Of a DNA stretch of 33,366 nt, positions 1 through 22,863 are shown piece by piece. The translations under genes and the position numbers were made by a program. Origin of the DNA: Candidatus Neomarinimicrobiota bacterium (GTDB lineage: Bacteria; Fidelibacterota; Marinisomatia; Marinisomatales; S15-B10); NCBI GenBank assembly GCA_030743815.1, contig JASLRT010000019.1:1-33366 (forward strand). The letters run 5' to 3'. Position 1 is the first letter of the stretch. Every line of letters starts with the position of its first letter. The notes beneath the pieces are model-generated. The model ran no database searches. It saw only the letters and a program-made list of their open reading frames with translations, and was not told the origin of the DNA.

Positions 1-3000
1 GAGCGCCATCGGATCATCTCGCACCCTGACGCACATGGATTTCTCCGGCAAGGCTATCCTGATCTTCCTCACGTCAATACGACCATCAGAATTCCCCACG
101 ACGGCGAGGTTGAGGCAAGCGTCTTATCCGTAGGGTTCGACGATTTCCGTCTCGGTCCGGTAGCGCCTTCGAAAGGGAGCATCACCAGAAGCAAGTCGTT
201 GCAACAGATTCCGTATCGCTTTGATCCCTTCTATGAGACGGATGAGTGGTTTCCCTCCGAAAATATCACCCTCGGCAAACCGTTCATTCTGAGGGGTGCA
301 AGAGGCGTCAATGTCCAGTTTCAGCCGTTTCAGTACAACCCCGGAACAGGCATTCTGAGGGTAGCCAAGTCGCTGGTAGTCGAAATTCGTTCAGATGGTG
401 GGGTCGCCGCAGGAGGGGGTCAGCCTCACCGCAAGAGCGAATTCGACGCTATCTACCGCGATCTGTTCCTGAACTACGTTACTGATGAATCTTCATCGCT
501 TGGGCAGATCGATGAGCCGGGAGAGCTGGTCATCATCGCACACGACAGTTTTGTGGATGCCGTTGCGCCGCTGGCACAATGGAAGATCCAGAAGGGAATC
601 CCCACCACGGTGGTTGTGCTGAGTGAAATCGGTTCTTCCAGCGAAGATATTAAAGTGTATTTGCGGACAAAGTACGAGACACGGGAGTTGACCTATGTCA
701 TCCTGGTGGGAGATGCATCTGAGATACCCGTCATGTGGGGTACGACCGACGCGGCTTCTGACCCCAGCTACGTCATGCTCGAGGGCGACGATTTTTATCC
801 CGATGCTTTCATTTCCAGGATTTCCGCCAGTTCGGTGGAACATGTTGAGGCGCAAGTAAACAAGATTCTTGCTTACGAGAAAACGCCCACAGGCGGGGAG
901 TGGTATCACAAGGGGTTAGGGATCGCCAGCAACGAGGGTTATGATATTCCGCCGAACTACATGCGGGACTGGGAACGGGCCGAAATTCTGCGAGAGATAC
1001 TTCTCGGCTATACTTATGAGCAGGTGGATCAGGTCTACGATCCCGGCGCCTCGCGGTCAGAAGTTACGGGTACTCTCAATGACGGCAGATCCATCGTGAA
1101 CTATATCGGCCACGGCTCAGGCACGAACTGGGCGACGACAGGATTCGGCAACTCCGATGCACTGCGATTAGAGAACGGCGAAAGATTACCGTTCATCATC
1201 GACATTTCCAGTCTCAACGGTCAGTGGCACGGCAAGACCTGCCTGGCGGAGGCGTTCTTGCGCAATCCTGGTGGAGGCGCCGTGGGGATGTTCTCTTCAT
1301 CGGTGAGTCCTTCGTGGGTGCCGCCTACAGTGATGCAGAAGCGTCTGATTAAACTGCTTGTGGCAGAGGAAAAACTGACTCTCGGTGCACTTACACTATC
1401 CGGTTCGCTGCGCGCACTGGAGGCGTATCAGGGCGGACGTGAGGGAGTAGCCGTGGTCGAAGAATACAATCTCTTCGGCGACTGCACTCTGCCTGTCAGG
1501 ACGGCGACGCCGACCAGGCTTGAAGTCTCCCATCCCAGCATAATCACACCGGGATCGACCACCTTCTCTGTCGCCACATCGGTTGCTGACGCCCTTGTAT
1601 CTCTCTCTATGGGCGGGGTCATCTTCGGCACCGGCGTCACCGATGAATCGGGCATTGCTGTGTTGGACTTCCACCGCGATCCTGATCAAGTGGACGCCAT
1701 GATCCTCACTGTCACAGCAAGGAACACTGTTCCGTACGTCAGAACCATCGCCGTGATGGAGCCGATACGACCGCACATCACGCTCAGCTCGTATGAGATT
1801 GATGACAGCGACGGCAACGGAGACGGCTCGACAGACTACGGCGAAACTGTCCGTCTCAGTCTTGAGTTGAGGAACAGCGGTCGGCTCGCTGCCGAAAATG
1901 TGACAGCGGTCGTTTCTACGGATGATCCCTTTATTAGCGTAGAGGCAGATTCTCTCAGGTTTGGTGATATACCGCCGCAAGCCAGCAGACTGAGTGATGA
2001 CGTCATTGTCTTCCACGTTTCACCGCTGACCCCCGACGCCCATGCCATTCTATTCTCGATCCATGCGCGAGCGAATAAGAGCGCGGGATCAGAGATGAGT
2101 TGGTCGGATAATATTGCTGTTGCCGTTGGAGCTCCGGAGCTGAGCTACGCGGGATACTCTCTTGTGAGGTTAGATTCGTTGCTCAATCTTGAAATCGGCA
2201 GAACGGAAGCCATTGTAGTTTCTATTGTGAACGATGGATCGGAGGGGGTAGAGGAGATTGAGCTGCACCTCAGTTCGGAGTCGAAGCATATCTCTATCGT
2301 GGACGGAGTGGCGATCATGACGGCAGTCCCGGCTGGCGCTCGAATGTCGAGCGCTGATGACCCATTTATCATCTCATCAGATGAGACAATGCCCCTCGGT
2401 TCGGAAGTAGAGTTCACCTTGGAGATGTCGACATCGGACGGCTACGCGGCGTCAAGCGAATTCAAAATTGCGGCGGGAGACAATATTATTTCCAGCAAAG
2501 ATGTGCCCAAGAACTTCGGCGTTAGCAGCGCTGAGTCCGTCCTCAGCATAGAAGAGTGGGTCTTCTTAGCTGACCTGGACGTGATGGTAAATATTACTCA
2601 TTCGTGGGTGGAGGACGTTGCCCTGAAGCTAGAGTCGCCTTCGGGCACTGTCATCGATCTCATCAAAGGCGTGAGCGTGAGCGGCGGCGGTTTTGAGGAG
2701 ACGGTCTTTGACGATGATGCCCCCGTCTCAATTGTAGAAGCGTCGGCCCCTTTCAGCGGTTCTTTCCGGCCCGAGGCGCCTCTGTCAACCTTCAATGGTG
2801 AGCTGGCACTGGGCGAGTGGAAGCTGCATGTTTTAGATAAATTTCCGCAGTTGGACAATGGCACCTTGAACGAATGGGCTCTAATCGTCAAGGGAGCCGA
2901 ACCACCCTGCCGCTCAGGCGACGTCTCGGCGGACGGCGACCTCGATATGCTGGACGTGAGCTACATAATTAGTCTTGTTGTGGGGATTCCCGAAAGTCCC

Positions 3001-3678
3001 AGTGACCAGCAACTGTGCGCGGCAGATTATAATCACAATGGAGAGGTTTCCATTGCCGATGCCGTTCAGCTGTTGAACGATATACTGGGCGTCAGTCTGC
3101 CGCGGCAAGTCGCCGCCGCGGGCGTTGCTCTAGAAGTGCGGGAGAAGAGTGTCGTCTTGCATCCCACTGGCGCCGTAGGGGGTGTTGAATTCACGGTAGT
3201 GTCAGAGAGTGCGGTGTCAGCGGTGAACCATGAGAGTGTTTCTGTTCAACTGAACTGTGTCGGCAAGCGGACACGGGTTGCGGTCTATAGCGAAGATGCC
3301 CGTCCCCTGTCTGAGGCAGATTTGCTCACTGTGGCGGGCCAGTTCTCCATCAAGGATCTGCGTGCGGTGGACAGGTCCGGCAATGAAATCACTGCTGACA
3401 TCGTGAACATTCCTTCTCACTTTGTCTTGCACAATCCCTATCCCAACCCCTTTAACCCCACCACCACTATCCGGTACGATCTCCCCGAAGCAGGGCGAGT
3501 ATCTCTGATCATCTATGATATCCTCGGGCGTAAAGTGGCAGTAGCAGTGGACAGTTGGCAGGAGGCAGGAGCACACGAGGTGGTGTGGTCAGCGGCGGAT
3601 ATTCCTTCGGGGATTTATTTTGTGAGGATGGCGAGCGGCGCTTTCAGTCGGGTGAGGAAGGTGGTGGTGTTGAGGTGA
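1..3678 (+). CDS. Gingipain-like C25 family secreted protein with type IX-style sorting domain (5' partial)
   Basis: The frame is open from base 1 with no stop, so the true start lies outside the window; the TTG at 199 is only an internal codon. Residues here are counted from base 1. Residues 1-60 resemble a C25 propeptide (GYPDLP followed by an IP strand). The peptidase-like domain spans about 170-500, with GELVIIAHD, a VILVGD strand, NYIGHG (His371) and DISSLNG. The position matching the gingipain nucleophile Cys is Ser404. Ig/CARDB-like beta domains follow, then a proprotein-convertase P-domain (about 835-968), a dockerin-like pair of calcium loops (about 970-1033; DVSADGDLDMLD and DYNHNGEVSIAD), and a C-terminal sorting domain from about 1143 (NPYPNPFNPTTTI, YDILGRKV, GIYFVRM). 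It is likely exported and surface-attached or released. Whether it is an active protease is open because of the Ser. Confidence 0.9.
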   Translation, partial: ERHRIISHPDAHGFLRQGYPDLPHVNTTIRIPHDGEVEASVLSVGFDDFRLGPVAPSKGSITRSKSLQQIPYRFDPFYETDEWFPSENITLGKPFILRGARGVNVQFQPFQYNPGTGILRVAKSLVVEIRSDGGVAAGGGQPHRKSEFDAIYRDLFLNYVTDESSSLGQIDEPGELVIIAHDSFVDAVAPLAQWKIQKGIPTTVVVLSEIGSSSEDIKVYLRTKYETRELTYVILVGDASEIPVMWGTTDAASDPSYVMLEGDDFYPDAFISRISASSVEHVEAQVNKILAYEKTPTGGEWYHKGLGIASNEGYDIPPNYMRDWERAEILREILLGYTYEQVDQVYDPGASRSEVTGTLNDGRSIVNYIGHGSGTNWATTGFGNSDALRLENGERLPFIIDISSLNGQWHGKTCLAEAFLRNPGGGAVGMFSSSVSPSWVPPTVMQKRLIKLLVAEEKLTLGALTLSGSLRALEAYQGGREGVAVVEEYNLFGDCTLPVRTATPTRLEVSHPSIITPGSTTFSVATSVADALVSLSMGGVIFGTGVTDESGIAVLDFHRDPDQVDAMILTVTARNTVPYVRTIAVMEPIRPHITLSSYEIDDSDGNGDGSTDYGETVRLSLELRNSGRLAAENVTAVVSTDDPFISVEADSLRFGDIPPQASRLSDDVIVFHVSPLTPDAHAILFSIHARANKSAGSEMSWSDNIAVAVGAPELSYAGYSLVRLDSLLNLEIGRTEAIVVSIVNDGSEGVEEIELHLSSESKHISIVDGVAIMTAVPAGARMSSADDPFIISSDETMPLGSEVEFTLEMSTSDGYAASSEFKIAAGDNIISSKDVPKNFGVSSAESVLSIEEWVFLADLDVMVNITHSWVEDVALKLESPSGTVIDLIKGVSVSGGGFEETVFDDDAPVSIVEASAPFSGSFRPEAPLSTFNGELALGEWKLHVLDKFPQLDNGTLNEWALIVKGAEPPCRSGDVSADGDLDMLDVSYIISLVVGIPESPSDQQLCAADYNHNGEVSIADAVQLLNDILGVSLPRQVAAAGVALEVREKSVVLHPTGAVGGVEFTVVSESAVSAVNHESVSVQLNCVGKRTRVAVYSEDARPLSEADLLTVAGQFSIKDLRAVDRSGNEITADIVNIPSHFVLHNPYPNPFNPTTTIRYDLPEAGRVSLIIYDILGRKVAVAVDSWQEAGAHEVVWSAADIPSGIYFVRMASGAFSRVRKVVVLR

Positions 3679-14723: not shown

Positions 14724-14816
14724 CTCTTCTGAAGAAGGACAATTGTATTGATTTTGCCGAGGTAACGGGAGTAAGTTCGTGGTCGCTATATTCTGGATAA
14801 AGGAAAGGAAATATTG

Positions 14817-15977
14817 ATGAAATCGAGATTATTTACGTCTGAATCGGTCACAGAAGGTCACCCGGACAAAATGTGTGACCAGATTTCAGATGCTATATTA
14901 GATGATATTATAGGCCAAGATCCCGATGCGAGGGTGGCTTGTGAAACTTTGACTACTACCGGTCTGGTCCTTGTGGCCGGAGAAATCAGTACGAATTGCT
15001 ATTCTGACATACCGAAGGTTATCCGTAAGACGCTTGAGGATATCGGCTATACGAACCCGGAATATGGATTGGATTATCAGGATTGTTCTGTCCTGACCTC
15101 CATCCATGAACAGAGTGAAAATATCGCTGTTGGCGTTGACGAATCAGATGAACATGAACAGGGAGCCGGCGATCAGGGTCTCATGTTCGGCTATGCCTGT
15201 AATGAGACAGATGTACTCATGCCTCTTCCAATTCATCTGGCGCATAGGGTGGCCAGAAGGCTGGCGGATGTTCGTAAGGATGGAACCCTCCCTTGGGTCA
15301 GGCCCGATGGGAAATCTCAGGTTTCTGTCCGCTACGAGGATTCCAGACCTGTAGGTGTTGAGAAAATTGTGGTCGCCATTCAGCATGATCCTGATGTGAG
15401 TAATGATGTTATACACAGCGCAATTCGAGAAAAAGTGATCAAACCTGTCTGTGGAGACTGGTATCAGGATGATACGGACTGCTTCATCAATTCAACAGGT
15501 ATTTTTGAAAAAGGTGGGCCGGAAGCAGACACTGGTGTTACAGGAAGAAAGATCATCGTTGACACTTATGGCGGCTACGGCCGGCATGGTGGCGGTGCTT
15601 TTTCGGGCAAAGATCCATCCAAAGTAGATCGATCGGCTTCTTACATGGCGCGCTACATCGCGAAGAATATTGTTGCGGCTGAGCTGGCTGAAAGGTGCGA
15701 GATTCAATTGGCGTACACTATCGGGCGCGCTGAACCTGTCTCAGTTTATGTCGATTCCTTCGGGACAGGCAAATTGTCAGATGACAAGCTGGAGAAAATC
15801 GTGAATGATAACTTTCCATTGACTCCAAAGGAGATTATCAGCTATCTTGATCTCAAGCAGCCGATCTACAAAGCGACGGCGGCTTACGGACATTTCGGAC
15901 GGGAAGAGAAGTCATTCACGTGGGAAAAAACTGACAAGGCTGAAGAATTAAGGCAATATATGAACGGAGGGAACTGA
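14817..15977 (+). CDS. metK: S-adenosylmethionine synthetase
   Basis: It makes SAM from methionine and ATP in the cytoplasm. The 386-residue protein has all family signatures: GHPDK (residues 14-18), [12 protein letters not shown] and the [17 protein letters not shown] loop. The ATG at 14817 is preferred over the TTG one codon upstream; AAGGAAAGGAA lies just before. The 93-base leader shows no SAM-riboswitch fold that I recognise. It ends three bases before the GTG start of ahcY, and the ahcY ribosome-binding site lies in its last codons. The pair is therefore very probably co-transcribed: SAM production and removal of the methylation by-product. Confidence 0.96.
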
Positions 15978-15980
15978 CAG

Positions 15981-17237
15981 GTGACGGATCATCACATTAA
16001 GGAGATAGAACTGGCAGCGGAAGGGAAACGTTTGATTCTGTGGGCGGACAGGGATATGCCGGTCCTTACATCCATCAGGGAAAGGTTCAACGATGAACAA
16101 CCGCTGAAGGGCATCCGTCTCTCAGCTTGCCTTCACATTACAGCTGAAACAGCGAACCTTGCCAGAACACTTCAAGCCGGCGGTGCAGAGGTTGTCCTTT
16201 GCGCGTCTAATCCACTCTCCACCCAGGATGAGGTTGCCGCTTCACTGGTCAAGGATTTTGGAGTTAGCACCTACGCCATCAACGGAGAGAACAATGATAT
16301 CTATTACGATCATATTCGAGCGGCCCTTGACCACAAACCTCATATTACCCTGGATGACGGTGCTGATCTCGTCAGTATGTTGCACTCAGACTATCAGGAT
16401 GAAGTGTCTAACGTAAAATGCAGCATGGAAGAAACCACTACCGGCGTGATCCGACTAAGAGCTATGGAGAAGTCCGGTGCCCTCAAGATACCTGTCGTCG
16501 CGGTTAATGATGCGGATTCGAAACATCTATTTGATAATAGATACGGCACCGGTCAGTCTACAGTAGAAGGGATTGTCCGCGCGACGGGCGTGCTTCTGGC
16601 AGGAAAGACATTCGTGGTGGGTGGTTATGGTATGTGCGGTCGTGGACTTGCCTCGAGGGCGAGAGGCATGGGCGCACACGTGATTGTTACAGAAGTCGAT
16701 CCGCTACGGGGGCTGGAGGCGGCGATGGACGGATACACAGTTATGCGTATGTTACAAGCAGCAGCCATTGGTGATATCTTCTGTACCGTCACCGGTAATA
16801 CCACAGTACTTGATGTCAGCCACTTTGAGAAGATGAAGGACGGGACGGTTGTTGCAAACTCAGGACATTTCAACGTCGAAATCGATATTGATGCGCTTGA
16901 AATGCTGGCAAGTGAAGTAAAGAAAGATGTCAAAGAATTCGTTGATGAATATGTGATGGCCGATGGCAGAAGGATATATCTTTTGGGAGAGGGCAGGCTG
17001 ATCAACCTTGTGGCTGCTGAGGGGCATCCGGCTTCGGTGATGGATATGAGTTTTTCTGTGCAGGCGTTAATGGCGGAATACACTGTCCGAAATGATCTTC
17101 CGGTGTCAGTTCACGCTGTGCCGCGAGAAATTGATGAATTGGTTGCAGGTTTGAAACTCAAGGCGATGGGTATCAAGATCGATGCCCTCTCCAACGAACA
17201 AAAAGAATACCTCGATTCTTGGGAAAGCGGGACGTAA
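15981..17237 (+). CDS. ahcY: Adenosylhomocysteinase, archaeal/Thermotoga-type short form
   Basis: It splits S-adenosylhomocysteine into homocysteine and adenosine and relieves product inhibition of methyltransferases. The 418-residue protein uses GTG as start, with GGAGG (15966-15970) ten bases upstream inside metK. Motifs are SACLHITAETANLARTL, SNPLSTQDEVAASL, DDGADLV, NDADSKHLFDNRYGTGQS and the NAD-binding GGYGMCGRG (about 213-220). The C-terminus ends without the KPDHYRY tail of the long bacterial and eukaryotic enzymes, which fits the shorter archaeal/Thermotoga clade. Members of that clade can act on S-inosylhomocysteine (Methanocaldococcus MJ1388), so the substrate is not certain. It follows metK by three bases. 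Confidence 0.92.
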   Translation: MTDHHIKEIELAAEGKRLILWADRDMPVLTSIRERFNDEQPLKGIRLSACLHITAETANLARTLQAGGAEVVLCASNPLSTQDEVAASLVKDFGVSTYAINGENNDIYYDHIRAALDHKPHITLDDGADLVSMLHSDYQDEVSNVKCSMEETTTGVIRLRAMEKSGALKIPVVAVNDADSKHLFDNRYGTGQSTVEGIVRATGVLLAGKTFVVGGYGMCGRGLASRARGMGAHVIVTEVDPLRGLEAAMDGYTVMRMLQAAAIGDIFCTVTGNTTVLDVSHFEKMKDGTVVANSGHFNVEIDIDALEMLASEVKKDVKEFVDEYVMADGRRIYLLGEGRLINLVAAEGHPASVMDMSFSVQALMAEYTVRNDLPVSVHAVPREIDELVAGLKLKAMGIKIDALSNEQKEYLDSWESGT

Positions 17238-17255: not shown

Positions 17256-20246
17256 ATGAAGCGAGTAGTCTCTATATTCTTGATCGTACTGTCTTGGTTC
17301 CATCTAGGCTGCGATTTCCAGAATCCGGCGGATTTCAAAATGCCGACCTGGAACTGGAATCTTACCCTCCCGCTCATCCAAAACAAGTACCCCCTCGCCG
17401 ATATCGTGAACGACTCGACAATTCAGACAGCCGGTGATTCACTTTTCATCCAGTTCAATGGCGATTTGCCGAAGGATTCGGTCAACGAAGACTTTCTTAA
17501 GATTCCTCTAAATCTCACGCAGGAGGCTTCTACTGAAATAACGCCGCCGAATATTTCCGAAGTATTCTCAGGTGTTACCGTCTCAATGACACTTCCCATA
17601 CCCGTAGGAGAATTTCTGAATGGTAATGTTGTTAACATTGCAGATTCTCCCAATATGGTATCTATTCCGTCGTCTTCAGAACAGCAGATTATGGGTGCGT
17701 CGTGGAATTTTGTGGCGAGCACTATCGAATCCGCACTGGGTGATACTACAATTGAGATTAACCTGTTTAGTTTCGATGATGTTTTCGGCCAGATCGAGAT
17801 CATCGAATCGATACAAGGTGTTCTGGTGGGAGGCGCCGCTGAAGACAACAGGTTCAGCTCCAGTTTTGAGAACACCGATTTTCCTGCAACAATTCCCATT
17901 GACAGCAGTTGGTCAATAGTCATCAGTGGAACCGATACACTTGCATCCCATAAAAATCCTGACATCTCCTCTGGCGAGACAGATGCGGATACTACTTCTC
18001 TGGTGCAAAAGATGCTGGGGGAGTTGCTTGAAATCAAGACTGGATTCAAGCTCACAAGGGTTGCGGATACCGATACAGTGACCATTCCGGCAAACACCAG
18101 CCTGGATATGTCTGTGACGATGAGCATGACAATCACCGATATTAAAGAAGCAGTTGTCGTTTTTAAGGAAACTTCTCTCGTCCCGCCACTCGATCCCATC
18201 GCCTTTAGCAGCTCCAGCACCAGTTCCGAAGATTGCCAGGTCAGGGGGATATACAGCGGTGTGTTCGATAGCCCTACTTCTTCTTCGGTTAACTCTATTG
18301 GTTATGTTGACGTTAAGAATACGTTTCCTTTTAATATCAATTTCAGCATGAAGCTTAAGAACTTCATTAGCACCACCAACGACACACTCCAGTTCAGTGA
18401 AATACTTTCTTCAGATGGTACTTCCGTGTCTGATAACCAGAAGCTTGACGGGTGGACATTCAAGAATCCTACCGATCCCACTAAACCCGTGGAGGAGATA
18501 GACGTTCAGATTAGCGCGAATTCCGTGGCAGGTACCGATACGATCAGGATAGACGGTACGGAAGAAGAGTGGGGTTTTGACTTTGCCATGAATGTTCTTC
18601 CACTCTATTTTTCGACATTGGAGGCGGACTTAGACTGTCCCTTTCCCACACAAGAACAGGAAATCGCTGGTGTGCCTCAGGGCTTCACCGGCATGTCGTT
18701 CGACGAGGTGATACTTCAGTTCACGATGTTCAACGAGATTCGTCTTCCGATTACACTCGATCTGGACATGGTCGGCATCTCAAGCATGGGGGACTCTGTA
18801 AATGTGGCGGTCAGTTCCAAGCTTGCCAATCCTGTCTCCGTTACTGACACAGCCAAGACGATCATTCAGTTGAGTAGTGTCGGTACTAAGGTTGAGCTTT
18901 ACGACAGTGTGAGTGATACTCTTCCAGACAGCAGTTATACCTCGTTAGCTGGCATTGAAGATAACACGATTGTTGATCTTCTAGCGCTCAACCCGTCGGA
19001 TTTTATTGTTAATGCCACGGCGGGCATCGACGGCCGGGGCGCCATCGATGTGAACAAGGCTATCTGGGGTAACTATGAATTGATTGCTCCCTTCAAAGTC
19101 AGGATAGAACCCATAACCTTCATTCCACAGAAAGCGACAGACTTTGCGGAGATTTCGCACGCAACCAGAAGTATGCTCAGGTCGTCTCTGAAGGCGACAA
19201 CACTAGTCACACATGTGAAGAACGGTCTGCCGACAGGCGGGGTGATATCGATACTTTTTTCCAACCGCAATCTGTTTCCACTCGATAGGGATGCGAGCAC
19301 TCTGAGTCTCTTTGCTGACAGCTTGAAAACGACCGCGGCAAAGTTTATCTCAGGCGATACGGAAAGTTTTACTTCTTTCGGTTTCGGTTCCGATAAGACT
19401 CGACTTGCTAACATCTATCAGAATATGGATTCATTGCGTGTGGTTACATCATGTTATGATCTGAATATGGTGGCAGGAGACATTAATGTTTTCGATGTAC
19501 TGCCTGACACGTCCGATTGTAAGGATAATACAGCCTACCTGGTGGCGAGCTTTGCTGATACCACGGAGCGAGTTATATCTTATGTTGATACATTCTTTCA
19601 GGTTCTTCTGCCGACGCCAGAGAGCTTTTTTGGTGATACAGCTACTGTAGGTATTCCTGGTGCGGTTGAGCAAGCGGGAGATACCATATTCTACAGCGAA
19701 CTGGACTCTAACAACATTTTTCATCTGACAGATATAGGTTCCCATTTTGTCAATAATCGAACCCATTTTTTCGGTAGCGGCGGTGAGGCGGTTTTCTTCA
19801 CTATGAAGGATACGCTGGAAATAGAGGCTATGGTCTCCTTCACACTTGAGAGCACAGGACTTCTTGAAGAGGCAGAGGATGAGATTGTGATTACATATCC
19901 CAACGGGGGGGAAACTTTTTCTATAGGTGATACTGTCACCATCAAATGGCGTTCACTGGGCAGTGTCAAGAATTCGTCAGTGGAAGTTTTCTCAGCTACG
20001 GATACATCCGCGGGCGGTCCGTCTGAATGGACATCAATTTCCGGCGGTTCGATCACGAATGTGGACTCGCTAGATTGGATTCCCAGCGTGGCTTCTGATG
20101 TCATCATATTCAGGGTCTGCAACGAAGGTGAAACTGTTTGTGATGAGAGTGCGTCGTATTCGACGGTTGAGGCCAGCAGACTGGCTAATCAAAGTTCCGT
20201 GGCCAAGCGCAGTAAGAACGGCATCCAGAGTGGTAAGATCCGATGA
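17256..20246 (+). CDS. Large predicted surface lipoprotein, unknown family
   Basis: I do not recognise the family of this 996-residue protein. The N-terminus MKRVVSIFLIVLSWFHLGC is a lipoprotein signal ending in an LGC lipobox with Cys19 followed by Asp, so LspA processing is expected. The rest is rich in Ser, Thr, Asp and beta-strand patterns, with very few Cys. A segment after the Cys (MPTWNWNLTLPL, YPLADI) and others such as APFKVRIEPITFIPQ suggest repeated beta-sandwich modules. Near residue 880 there is a Kre9/Knh1-like Ig module (YPNGGETFSIGDTVTIKWRS), and the last 20 residues are basic. No ribosome-binding site is obvious before 17256. Its last bases overlap the barrel gene at ATGA, so the two proteins are probably made together. 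Confidence 0.8.
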   Translation: MKRVVSIFLIVLSWFHLGCDFQNPADFKMPTWNWNLTLPLIQNKYPLADIVNDSTIQTAGDSLFIQFNGDLPKDSVNEDFLKIPLNLTQEASTEITPPNISEVFSGVTVSMTLPIPVGEFLNGNVVNIADSPNMVSIPSSSEQQIMGASWNFVASTIESALGDTTIEINLFSFDDVFGQIEIIESIQGVLVGGAAEDNRFSSSFENTDFPATIPIDSSWSIVISGTDTLASHKNPDISSGETDADTTSLVQKMLGELLEIKTGFKLTRVADTDTVTIPANTSLDMSVTMSMTITDIKEAVVVFKETSLVPPLDPIAFSSSSTSSEDCQVRGIYSGVFDSPTSSSVNSIGYVDVKNTFPFNINFSMKLKNFISTTNDTLQFSEILSSDGTSVSDNQKLDGWTFKNPTDPTKPVEEIDVQISANSVAGTDTIRIDGTEEEWGFDFAMNVLPLYFSTLEADLDCPFPTQEQEIAGVPQGFTGMSFDEVILQFTMFNEIRLPITLDLDMVGISSMGDSVNVAVSSKLANPVSVTDTAKTIIQLSSVGTKVELYDSVSDTLPDSSYTSLAGIEDNTIVDLLALNPSDFIVNATAGIDGRGAIDVNKAIWGNYELIAPFKVRIEPITFIPQKATDFAEISHATRSMLRSSLKATTLVTHVKNGLPTGGVISILFSNRNLFPLDRDASTLSLFADSLKTTAAKFISGDTESFTSFGFGSDKTRLANIYQNMDSLRVVTSCYDLNMVAGDINVFDVLPDTSDCKDNTAYLVASFADTTERVISYVDTFFQVLLPTPESFFGDTATVGIPGAVEQAGDTIFYSELDSNNIFHLTDIGSHFVNNRTHFFGSGGEAVFFTMKDTLEIEAMVSFTLESTGLLEEAEDEIVITYPNGGETFSIGDTVTIKWRSLGSVKNSSVEVFSATDTSAGGPSEWTSISGGSITNVDSLDWIPSVASDVIIFRVCNEGETVCDESASYSTVEASRLANQSSVAKRSKNGIQSGKIR

Positions 20247-21745
20247 CGGTTTTGTTGGTCAAAAAAATAGAGAAGTATTCCGTCGCGCTGGCTATCGTGG
20301 GTATGTTTTCTGGCGTTCTTGAAGCCCAAGTGAAGACCGATCCGAGGAGCGTGTCTATGGGAGGCGCTACCACAACTGTGGCGGATGGAATTTATGCCGT
20401 TGGCATCAATCCGGCGAACCTCTCCATGCAGATAGGCAAACCATTTATGTGGCAGTTGAGTACGCTGAATATAGGTTTTGTGAACAACTGGCTCTCTTTA
20501 GAGAACTTCATGGCGTTGAGCGGAGTAAACATGGAAGCTCAGAATCAGAGGGCTAAGAAAGTGATTTATGATGAAATTGGCGATGGTCTCCGCTTATTCC
20601 GAGATCTCCATCTTGGCATACCCCTTGTCAACTATGCCTCAGGGAATATGGCAATTACGAACGATATCGTCTATGTGTCTGATTTCACATTCCCCAAGGA
20701 TATGTTCAGACTCTTTCTAGACGGCAATCCGCCTTATGAAGCGCTGGACATGTCTATGAAATATGAAACGCTCGCTCTACTGGAATCGGCATTCAGTTTT
20801 GCAGTTCCATTCGAGAAATTTTCGCTAGGCTTTACCGCAAAGTACTTAAGCGGCCTTATCTATCTCGGTCTCGTTTCGGATTCGACATACTATAATGTTA
20901 CGACCGAGCCTTCAGGATTCATCTTTGATGGCCAGTTTTATCTGAGACAAGGACGCGACGGAAGCGGCATCGGTGCCGATATCGGCTTTCTAACGAACGA
21001 TGTCAACGGCTGGCGTTTTGGTATGTCGATCATTAATCTCCTGGGCAAGATCAAATGGACGAGCAGTGGCAGTGTGGATGAGGAGTCATGGTCGGTTGCT
21101 CCCTGGAATGAGATCAAGCCTGGCACAGCCAAAATCTGGACATTCAGTGATACTGTTTCGGCGAATACAATTCAGGACAGCCTGTTCCCATCGCCGGGAA
21201 CTGAATCGAGCGGTATTGCCGGTGTTATGGGGAGGCTTCTTGAGGGGAAAGTAAGCTACGTTCCTGACACTACCGTCTTTACGTTGCGATATCCCGCCAT
21301 GTTTCGTTTAGGCTTTTCGAAAAAATTTGATGAAGACTTGCTCATTGCCAGTGATCTTGTGGCCGGTTTCGACGATCGTTTAAATATCCGCAATCAGTGG
21401 ATATGGTCTATCGGCCTCCAGTTCAGCAGGTTTAAGAGTATTCCGCTTCGTGTGGGATACACTTGGGGAGGGAGATCTTTTAATCAAACCGGTTTTGGCA
21501 TAGGGCTGGAGAAGGGTCCTATTATGATGGACTTTGCTTTTGCCTTCAGGAACGGTCTATGGGTAAACAGCATGAAAGGACTCACTTTTTCAATGGCTTT
21601 TGCAATGACCAGTTTTAAGGGAAGAAAAGAGAAGACGGAGCCGAAAGCAGAAGAAGGTCCTTTACCTGAGCCCGAAGGTGAGCCCGAGACTGGAGTCAAT
21701 AAAGTTCAATTCCGCAGCTACGCGAAGACGTCTGGCCCATCTTAG
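20243..21745 (+). CDS. Outer-membrane beta-barrel protein, PorV/FadL-like
   Basis: A 500-residue protein with a signal peptide (hydrophobic residues about 13-26, likely cut after LEA). The mature N-terminus has SMGGATTTVADGIYAVGINPANL, typical of PorV- and FadL-like barrels of the FCB group (possibly DUF5723). The body alternates hydrophobic and polar residues with aromatic girdles, as expected for strands (RLGFSKKFDEDLLIASDLV, IPLRVGYTWGG). A Pro/Glu-rich tail follows about residue 465. It starts inside the lipoprotein gene (ATGA overlap), which points to coupled translation and a shared task. PorV itself carries type IX cargo to the surface, but this protein may instead be a transporter or assembly factor. 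The exact family is uncertain. Confidence 0.75.
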   Translation: MTVLLVKKIEKYSVALAIVGMFSGVLEAQVKTDPRSVSMGGATTTVADGIYAVGINPANLSMQIGKPFMWQLSTLNIGFVNNWLSLENFMALSGVNMEAQNQRAKKVIYDEIGDGLRLFRDLHLGIPLVNYASGNMAITNDIVYVSDFTFPKDMFRLFLDGNPPYEALDMSMKYETLALLESAFSFAVPFEKFSLGFTAKYLSGLIYLGLVSDSTYYNVTTEPSGFIFDGQFYLRQGRDGSGIGADIGFLTNDVNGWRFGMSIINLLGKIKWTSSGSVDEESWSVAPWNEIKPGTAKIWTFSDTVSANTIQDSLFPSPGTESSGIAGVMGRLLEGKVSYVPDTTVFTLRYPAMFRLGFSKKFDEDLLIASDLVAGFDDRLNIRNQWIWSIGLQFSRFKSIPLRVGYTWGGRSFNQTGFGIGLEKGPIMMDFAFAFRNGLWVNSMKGLTFSMAFAMTSFKGRKEKTEPKAEEGPLPEPEGEPETGVNKVQFRSYAKTSGPS

Positions 21746-21771: not shown

Positions 21772-22863
21772 TTACTTTCTAGAGAGAATGATCAGCAAGA
21801 TACCGCCTGCCAGAAAGACTATATTCCCGATCCATGCCGACAGCATCGGTTCCAATATGCCTTTGTAACCGAGTGTCTGTCCAAATCTTATAAAGGCGTA
21901 ATAGCCAAAAATAACGAATACACTCATGCCTGCCCCGAAGGCTATTCCGCCGTTCTGTTTCGAAGCAACAAGAGGAAACGCAAAAAGTACAACAATTAAG
22001 TTTGTGAGGGCAAAAGAGACCTTACCATAAAGATTGACCTCCCATCTCGTTGTGTCGACACCACTCTCGACCAGTTCCTCAATAAAAACCTTCAGTTGTG
22101 CATAGTTCTTTTCTTCTGGCGATATGGCCTCCCTCTCCAGGTCTTCGGGCGTAAAGTCGATGGTCAGAAGTGTGTCTTTTCGGGATAGCTGGACGTTGGA
22201 CTCGAAGCCGTCAGGGTGGAAACTCCTGAGTGCATAAGTCTTCACGTGCCACCCTTCTTCCTTTTCATTCCACGACATTGAGTTGGCGTCAATCCTCTGT
22301 ATTAGCCGACCGTCTTCCAGAAACTGCATGGCTACCCCCATAGCCTTCTTAAGCTTAGGCTGGTAACGATCGATTGCGATGTGAAATTGATCTGATTTCT
22401 GAAGAAAGATATTTCGCTTGCGGGTGTTATATCGTTTGCGGCGTGTTTTTATAACGTGCTCTTTTTCGATGACTTTCCTTTTCTGATTGCCAACGGTGAC
22501 AACTTGATCATCGAAGAAGAATGAGAGAATACTGATGATTATGGAACAGATGATGAGAGGCGCAACTATCCGGTAAAGCGATACGCCGGCCGATTTCATA
22601 GCCGTCAGCTCATTACGCTTGGAGAGGAGACCGACGGTAAAGATAGTAGAAATCAGAACCGCCATGGGTAATGCTATGCTTATAAACCAGGGGGAGGCAT
22701 AGATATAGTATGAAACGATAATGTTGATGGGTACCGCGGCATCAATAAAACGATCGAGATTTTCCACGGCATCAACAATCACGAATACAGCCCAGAAGCC
22801 GACGAGAGCTCCCACCAACATCAGGAGAAACTCCTTGATCATATAGAAATCTATCCGTTTCAT
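21772..22863 (-). CDS. lptG: LPS export permease, LptF/LptG (YjgP/YjgQ) family
   Basis: A 363-residue inner-membrane protein of the ABC system that pulls lipopolysaccharide from the inner membrane to the Lpt bridge. It has the family layout: three N-terminal helices (MIKEFLLMLVGALVGFWAVF, about 56-80, about 100-116), a large periplasmic beta-jellyroll-like domain (about 120-270) and three C-terminal helices. SKRNELTAMKSAGVSLYRI after helix 2 is the characteristic cytoplasmic loop. The gene converges on the barrel gene (26-base gap) and diverges from the antiporter (77-base gap). The ATP-binding and second permease partners are not in the window. LptG is preferred over LptF by overall feel only. 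Confidence 0.85.
   Translation of the reverse strand: MKRIDFYMIKEFLLMLVGALVGFWAVFVIVDAVENLDRFIDAAVPINIIVSYYIYASPWFISIALPMAVLISTIFTVGLLSKRNELTAMKSAGVSLYRIVAPLIICSIIISILSFFFDDQVVTVGNQKRKVIEKEHVIKTRRKRYNTRKRNIFLQKSDQFHIAIDRYQPKLKKAMGVAMQFLEDGRLIQRIDANSMSWNEKEEGWHVKTYALRSFHPDGFESNVQLSRKDTLLTIDFTPEDLEREAISPEEKNYAQLKVFIEELVESGVDTTRWEVNLYGKVSFALTNLIVVLFAFPLVASKQNGGIAFGAGMSVFVIFGYYAFIRFGQTLGYKGILEPMLSAWIGNIVFLAGGILLIILSRK

Follow-up and report, generated by a model that had tools for sequence, protein, structure and literature searches.

The locus described here raises the question whether a large lipoprotein and the outer-membrane β-barrel encoded directly behind it act as a pair, and what such a pair might do. 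The two genes lie in a 33,366-nucleotide stretch (the window) from contig C19 of G000, a 2.11-Mb draft genome of a Candidatus Neomarinimicrobiota (SAR406) bacterium. Marine bacteria of this phylum are found widely, most have never been cultured, and very little is known about their cell surface. The genes are called LIPO and BARREL below, and the relevant features are as follows.

14814..17237, + strand: metK and ahcY, conserved upstream neighbours (profile matches, recurring gene order)
17256..20246, + strand: LIPO, 996-aa type I lipoprotein of an unnamed family (open reading frame, ATG start)
17310..17312, + strand: lipidation Cys19, followed by Asp (C-D-F-x-x-P), a surface-export-like signal (alignment A1)
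17310..17480, + strand: lipid-proximal segment C..P....P.W......PL, residues 19–75, common to types I, II and III (cross-type conservation)
19863..20171, + strand: C-terminal Ig-like module, approximately residues 870–972, a variable accessory of LIPO (weak Kre9_KNH match)
20243..20246, + strand: LIPO/BARREL stop/start overlap ATGA, 4 bases (read from the sequence)
20243..21745, + strand: BARREL, 500-aa DUF5723 outer-membrane β-barrel, FadL/PorV superfamily (open reading frame, ATG start, PF18990 match)
20327..20446, + strand: BARREL N-terminal tail or hatch with FadL-type NPA motif, residues 29–68 (alignment of 37 sequences)
20873..20914, + strand: predicted extracellular loop L3, residues 211–224, a candidate docking surface (conservation, model)
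21772..22863, − strand: lptG, conserved convergent downstream neighbour (profile matches, recurring gene order)

Both open reading frames were recovered as originally predicted, with the same coordinates, lengths and ATGA overlap. The description of the pair as an isolated two-gene module has to be given up, since it closely trails metK and ahcY on the same strand, with 18 bases between the ahcY stop and the LIPO start; only lptG is convergent. Because of the common strand and close spacing, metK, ahcY, LIPO and BARREL could form a single transcript. A scan of the locus for promoter and terminator consensus sequences gave nothing above shuffled sequences.

AhcY (window 15981-17237, L035-L075) occurs in two distinct lineages, with about 70-79 % versus 33-43 % identity to the window copy. 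Which of the two stands at the metK-ahcY position depends on the family, a pattern resembling replacement in place. Near the contig end, positions 199-3678 encode a C25 (gingipain-type) peptidase with a proprotein-convertase P domain, a dockerin-like stretch and a T9SS type A sorting domain.

Pairing, duplication and loss across the phylum

A single-protein search of genome contigs gave no relatives, and an alignment-based contig search returned 50 loci, whose titles read Neomarinimicrobiota/Marinimicrobia, FCB group or, in a few cases, unclassified bacterium. LIPO homologues were present in 44 of the 61 genomes of the relatives search, and the order metK-ahcY-LIPO-BARREL with convergent lptG recurs among the relatives' loci, also in other families of the phylum. 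Across a 120-genome phylum sample, a LIPO profile match was found immediately upstream in 88 of 126 loci encoding DUF5723, the family of BARREL; most of the remaining DUF5723 loci that were retrieved were paired too. When non-redundant loci with visible upstream sequence are considered, a LIPO-like gene precedes BARREL in 98 of 98, recognized by profile in 96 and by the N-terminal CxF..P signature (CEFEKP or CEFKLP) in two. Of 96 pairs, 61 have the 4-base stop/start overlap and a further 8 an overlap of a single base. The occurrence of a homologous pair at the same metK-ahcY/lptG position throughout the phylum is far beyond chance. Rare adjacency in relatives, which would have spoken against the original prediction, is the reverse of what these 98 BARREL loci display.

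Trees were constructed from 88 full, aligned LIPO-BARREL pairs, among which three types can be distinguished: type II, with 13 pairs located elsewhere, type III, with 5 pairs that are the upstream members of tandem arrays, and type I, comprising the pairs that are neither. In the LIPO tree and the BARREL tree alike, type II and type III each form a monophyletic group (support 1.0/1.0), and the pair was therefore duplicated as a unit; no exchange of partners was seen in the 88-pair trees. The two trees have 57 of 85 bipartitions in common, and a Mantel test gave r 0.91, with 1000 permutations reaching at most 0.25. Physical linkage alone would also yield congruent trees without contact, and that the linkage was never seen broken is the stronger point. 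After correction for lptG, metK and g25972 (35 loci), the partial distance correlation of LIPO and BARREL was 0.63, the highest of ten, but the 0.50 retained by lptG and metK, which are not known partners, shows the limits of this test. The genome of the window carries a second pair, of type II (G000:C98, L076 3067-6673), downstream of a lon-like protease gene and with a lipoprotein shortened to 681 aa.

Losses are also shared. BARREL is missing as well from 23 of 27 genomes that lack LIPO; the other four are three f13 genomes with type II pairs, in some of which LIPO is only about 365 aa long, and one case (G137) where the contig ends at the barrel. In family f15, with streamlined genomes of 0.8-1.0 Mb, and in G118 of family f17, neighbours such as g10763 and lptG are still close together, but the interval lacks metK, ahcY, LIPO and BARREL. 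BamD (G023, G033, G039) and SprA are retained in the f15 genomes examined, which have neither LIPO nor BARREL, so in f15 the pair is not a required part of the BAM machinery or the T9SS. Weak DUF5723 matches in f15 were rejected as partners: the one examined, in G033 (L186), encodes 349 aa with no more than a weak similarity to OMP_b-brl, and it follows a TonB-dependent receptor and a 1084-aa protein without Pfam match.

The co-occurrence and gene order checks called for by the original prediction thus gave universal pairing with shared duplications and losses. Together with the export signal described below, which is of the surface-lipoprotein type, this upholds the idea of a lipoprotein-barrel pair. 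Obligate pairing and joint duplication and loss point to a dedicated cell-surface complex.

Properties of the lipoprotein and the barrel

The lipoprotein was said to belong to no nameable family, and this is borne out. A Pfam search with LIPO gave no family at E<=1 and NCBIfam one meaningless match; PDB sequence searches gave no match at E<=1 for the type I profile and nothing meaningful for the LIPO type II and BARREL profiles. The N-terminus reads MKRVVSIFLIVLSWFHLGC-DFQNPADFKMPTW. Its lipobox is F-H-L-G-C, in which His at −3 is unusual. In the 35-row alignment A1 of LIPO homologues Cys19 is invariant and Asp20 is present in at least 90 %. An acidic residue at +2/+3 after the cysteine is found in 54 of 62 type I and 5 of 5 type III proteins but in 0 of 13 of type II. 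In the same phylum, such a residue is present in 14 of 14 SusD homologues, taken as surface proteins, and in 0 of 14 BamD homologues, which are periplasmic, the N-termini being read by eye and then counted. Types I and III thus combine the lipobox cysteine with a putative phylum-specific acidic export signal, and because this signal is as in SusD and unlike BamD, we infer that they are displayed on the surface. For type II surface display is doubtful, since the acidic residue is missing from all 13 sequences.

Residues 31-60 form the best-conserved 30-residue block across all three types (2.00 bits). By analogy with BamH (see below), the lipid-proximal segment to which they belong is proposed as the docking segment. 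Type I proteins also have a conserved cysteine pair at 733 and 755, probably forming a disulfide.

The AlphaFold2 model of LIPO (mean pLDDT 82, pTM 0.46) is an all-β chain of modules of uncertain arrangement. A Foldseek search with this model, weakened by the pTM of 0.46, gave generic β proteins only (reelin, C3/C5, BcsB and 4h3w; TM <= 0.12 to the query). Profile self-comparison detected no internal repeats in the window LIPO (best probability 2.7 %), and in type II paralogues it revealed tandem modules of about 150 aa (99.7 %, E 2.4e-26); the window LIPO aligns to the last type II module and the region beyond. The repeated β modules ascribed to this protein therefore hold as modular all-β architecture, but not as sequence repeats, which are detectable in type II paralogues only. 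Type II proteins are 365, about 680 or about 980 aa long (overall range 365 to 990 aa), from which it follows that the length of the module array varies. Module copy number in type II appears to differ among lineages (L217, L213 and others). The C-terminal Ig-like module is mostly missing from types II and III, is matched alone in other proteins (e.g. G125:C2, G051:C109), and its weak similarity to Kre9_KNH was found in 2 of 35 LIPO members (best E 0.0012).

BARREL matches DUF5723 (PF18990) with 43.4 bits against a gathering score of 26.8 (E 4.7e-11), as do 34 of 37 relatives at E<=0.01. For DUF5723 no described function or partner was found, and it was not mentioned in the literature searched. 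The PorV_fam model (NF033709) is matched by 37 of 37 members (best E 5e-12); BARREL itself scores 46 bits (E 5.1e-12), below the curated cut-off of 90, which makes it a weak relative of the PorV/PorQ family. The PorP/SprF models did not match BARREL, Pfam Toluene_X/FadL gave no match above cut-off in this genome, and a plasmid tblastn search with BARREL as query gave no match. The structural model is of moderate quality (mean pLDDT 71.6). Foldseek gave the toluene channel TodX as top match (E 4.7e-9, probability 1.00), within a group at E 5e-9 to 1e-6 that includes FadL, chains 9hjm_F, 9n2d_B and 9hiv_F of BAM entries, taken as BamG, and chains 8gl6_F and 6h3i_F of T9SS entries, taken as PorV; these labels rest on entry titles and two BAM papers (PMC12611786, PMC12578637). 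BamG, TodX and PorV match about equally, so that BARREL is not nearer to BamG. With a FadL-like fold, an N-terminal hatch and the NPA motif, BARREL belongs to the FadL/PorV superfamily, and its initial description as a PorV/FadL-like barrel is right at that level.

No other long region of BARREL is as conserved as the hatch, which has 78 % mean identity to the commonest residue and a length of 39-40 in 37 of 37 sequences. Loop L3, placed on the outside from FadL topology and DSSP, has 2.90 bits compared to 2.85 for the whole mature barrel and is 14-16 residues long. Both L2 and L3, the predicted outer loops, are nearly constant in length. Since free outer loops of barrels are usually variable, this would fit a bound partner. 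The variable Pro/Glu-rich tail of BARREL (window 21611-21742; 7-52 residues) is predicted to be periplasmic.

Possible roles and comparison with known systems

In view of the above, we consider it fairly probable that LIPO and BARREL form one stable outer-membrane complex in which BARREL is the platform for a surface-displayed cognate lipoprotein. LIPO would be exported as a lipoprotein and displayed on the cell surface, where BARREL, a 14-strand-type barrel of the FadL/PorV superfamily, would grip it by the conserved lipid-proximal N-terminal segment while the variable β-module array projects outward. Translational coupling could supply both proteins in matching amounts. Such a complex may serve in surface assembly, adhesion or capture.

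Three cases are known in which a FadL-family barrel holds a surface protein: PorV in the T9SS, SprF/PorP with type B clients, and BamG with BamH. SprF/PorP barrel genes lie directly downstream of those of type B clients (PMC12618676), which the barrels anchor (PMC9143113). The LIPO-BARREL order is that of SprB-SprF, with a large surface protein followed by a cognate 14-strand FadL-family barrel, and in both cases a genome may hold several specific pairs. However, LIPO has a lipobox and no T9SS CTD, and BARREL is a DUF5723 protein. CTD families were matched neither by the window LIPO at E<=1 nor by 35 type I members at E<=0.1, which excludes a type A or B substrate. Dependence on the T9SS was rejected because 60 of 61 relatives, ones without LIPO among them, have SprA, and because LIPO lacks a CTD. 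BARREL is not the T9SS PorV either, as another gene scores 259 bits and adjoins a C25 (PorU-like) gene near bamD. With SusC/SusD the pair shares the combination of barrel, surface lipoprotein and acidic export signal, but the SusD family, TonB plug and receptor barrel were all unmatched by LIPO and BARREL in the Pfam search.

A stronger interpretation would make the pair the BamG-BamH equivalent, an accessory canopy on the BAM complex that aids assembly of complex outer-membrane proteins. BamG holds on to BamH through the lipidated N-terminus of the latter (PMC12611786, PMC12578637), which is wedged into BamG (PMC12578637) and which LIPO residues 31-60 echo. Both systems combine a FadL-family barrel having a conserved N-tail with a large surface lipoprotein having a conserved lipidated N-terminus. 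BamG-BamH occurs in most FCB phyla, BamG2-BamH2 being a putative operon (PMC12611786, PMC12578637), BARREL matches the three Bacteroidota BAM chains, and the genes around the pair form a conserved housekeeping neighbourhood. Nevertheless, this equivalence is quite unlikely. LIPO has no BamH match by sequence or fold; BamH is not among the 50 best Foldseek matches, although the library searched does contain barrel chains from those entries. BARREL belongs to DUF5723, not Toluene_X, and resembles BamG no more than it does TodX or PorV. F. johnsoniae cannot do without BamG and BamH (PMC12611786), yet f15 genomes retain BamD and SprA without LIPO-BARREL, which a pair kept wherever the BAM core is kept would not allow.

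Foldseek does not separate a platform from a channel for hydrophobic substrates. BARREL could be a true FadL-type channel and LIPO a protein that captures, covers or passes its substrate, in line with TodX as best match, FadL channels heading the list, retention of the NPA hatch motif and the uptake function of lipoprotein-barrel pairs such as SusCD. This is unlikely, considering that BamG and PorV, for which no small-molecule transport is known, give nearly as good a match, that Toluene_X/FadL is unmatched above cut-off in this genome, and that a multi-domain protein of about 1000 aa, with relatives of 365-1100 aa, would be an unusual lid. Strict one-to-one pairing and translational coupling would also suit a dedicated exporter that flips its own lipoprotein to the surface, as Slam does, instead of anchoring it, and, to our knowledge, there is no agreed route for the passage of surface lipoproteins through the outer membrane of this superphylum. 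We regard this as very unlikely: BARREL has no TPR or other periplasmic domain family in the Pfam search, Slam is of another family, and SusD-type lipoproteins with a like signal in these genomes have no known need of a partner of this kind.

The best reading is that LIPO-BARREL is a FadL-superfamily barrel docking a lipoprotein of its own, similar in action to BamG-BamH or SprF-SprB but part of neither system, because the assignments as T9SS substrate, T9SS PorV, BamH and SusCD all fail and the pair is absent from f15. A wider proposal would make it a distinct class of FadL-type platform apart from BAM and T9SS, with paralogous barrel-lipoprotein dyads throughout SAR406 that build, and may also export, a large surface canopy or stalk whose module number differs by paralogue; this is possible but tentative. 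A FadL-superfamily barrel holding a specific surface protein, as BamG, PorV and SprF do, suggests a general habit of the FCB superphylum that may have produced further, unrecognized dyads. LIPO-BARREL is a conserved, obligately paired and unannotated surface system and thereby a ready target, and DUF5723 gains in LIPO a first concrete partner to test.

The 2.1-Mb genome G000 has 14 NF033709 matches, and thus many FadL-type barrels, each possibly with a partner. Elsewhere in it (L314, G000:C23:20000-38000), a stretch of about 9 kb contains bamD together with a PorV-family gene and a C25 (PorU-like) gene; many relatives show comparable proximity of PorV-family and bamD matches. Two of the streamlined f15 genomes (L315, G033:C2; L317, G023:C4) have the PorV-family gene immediately next to bamD, with the C25 gene and its two neighbours absent from between them, although SprA is retained.
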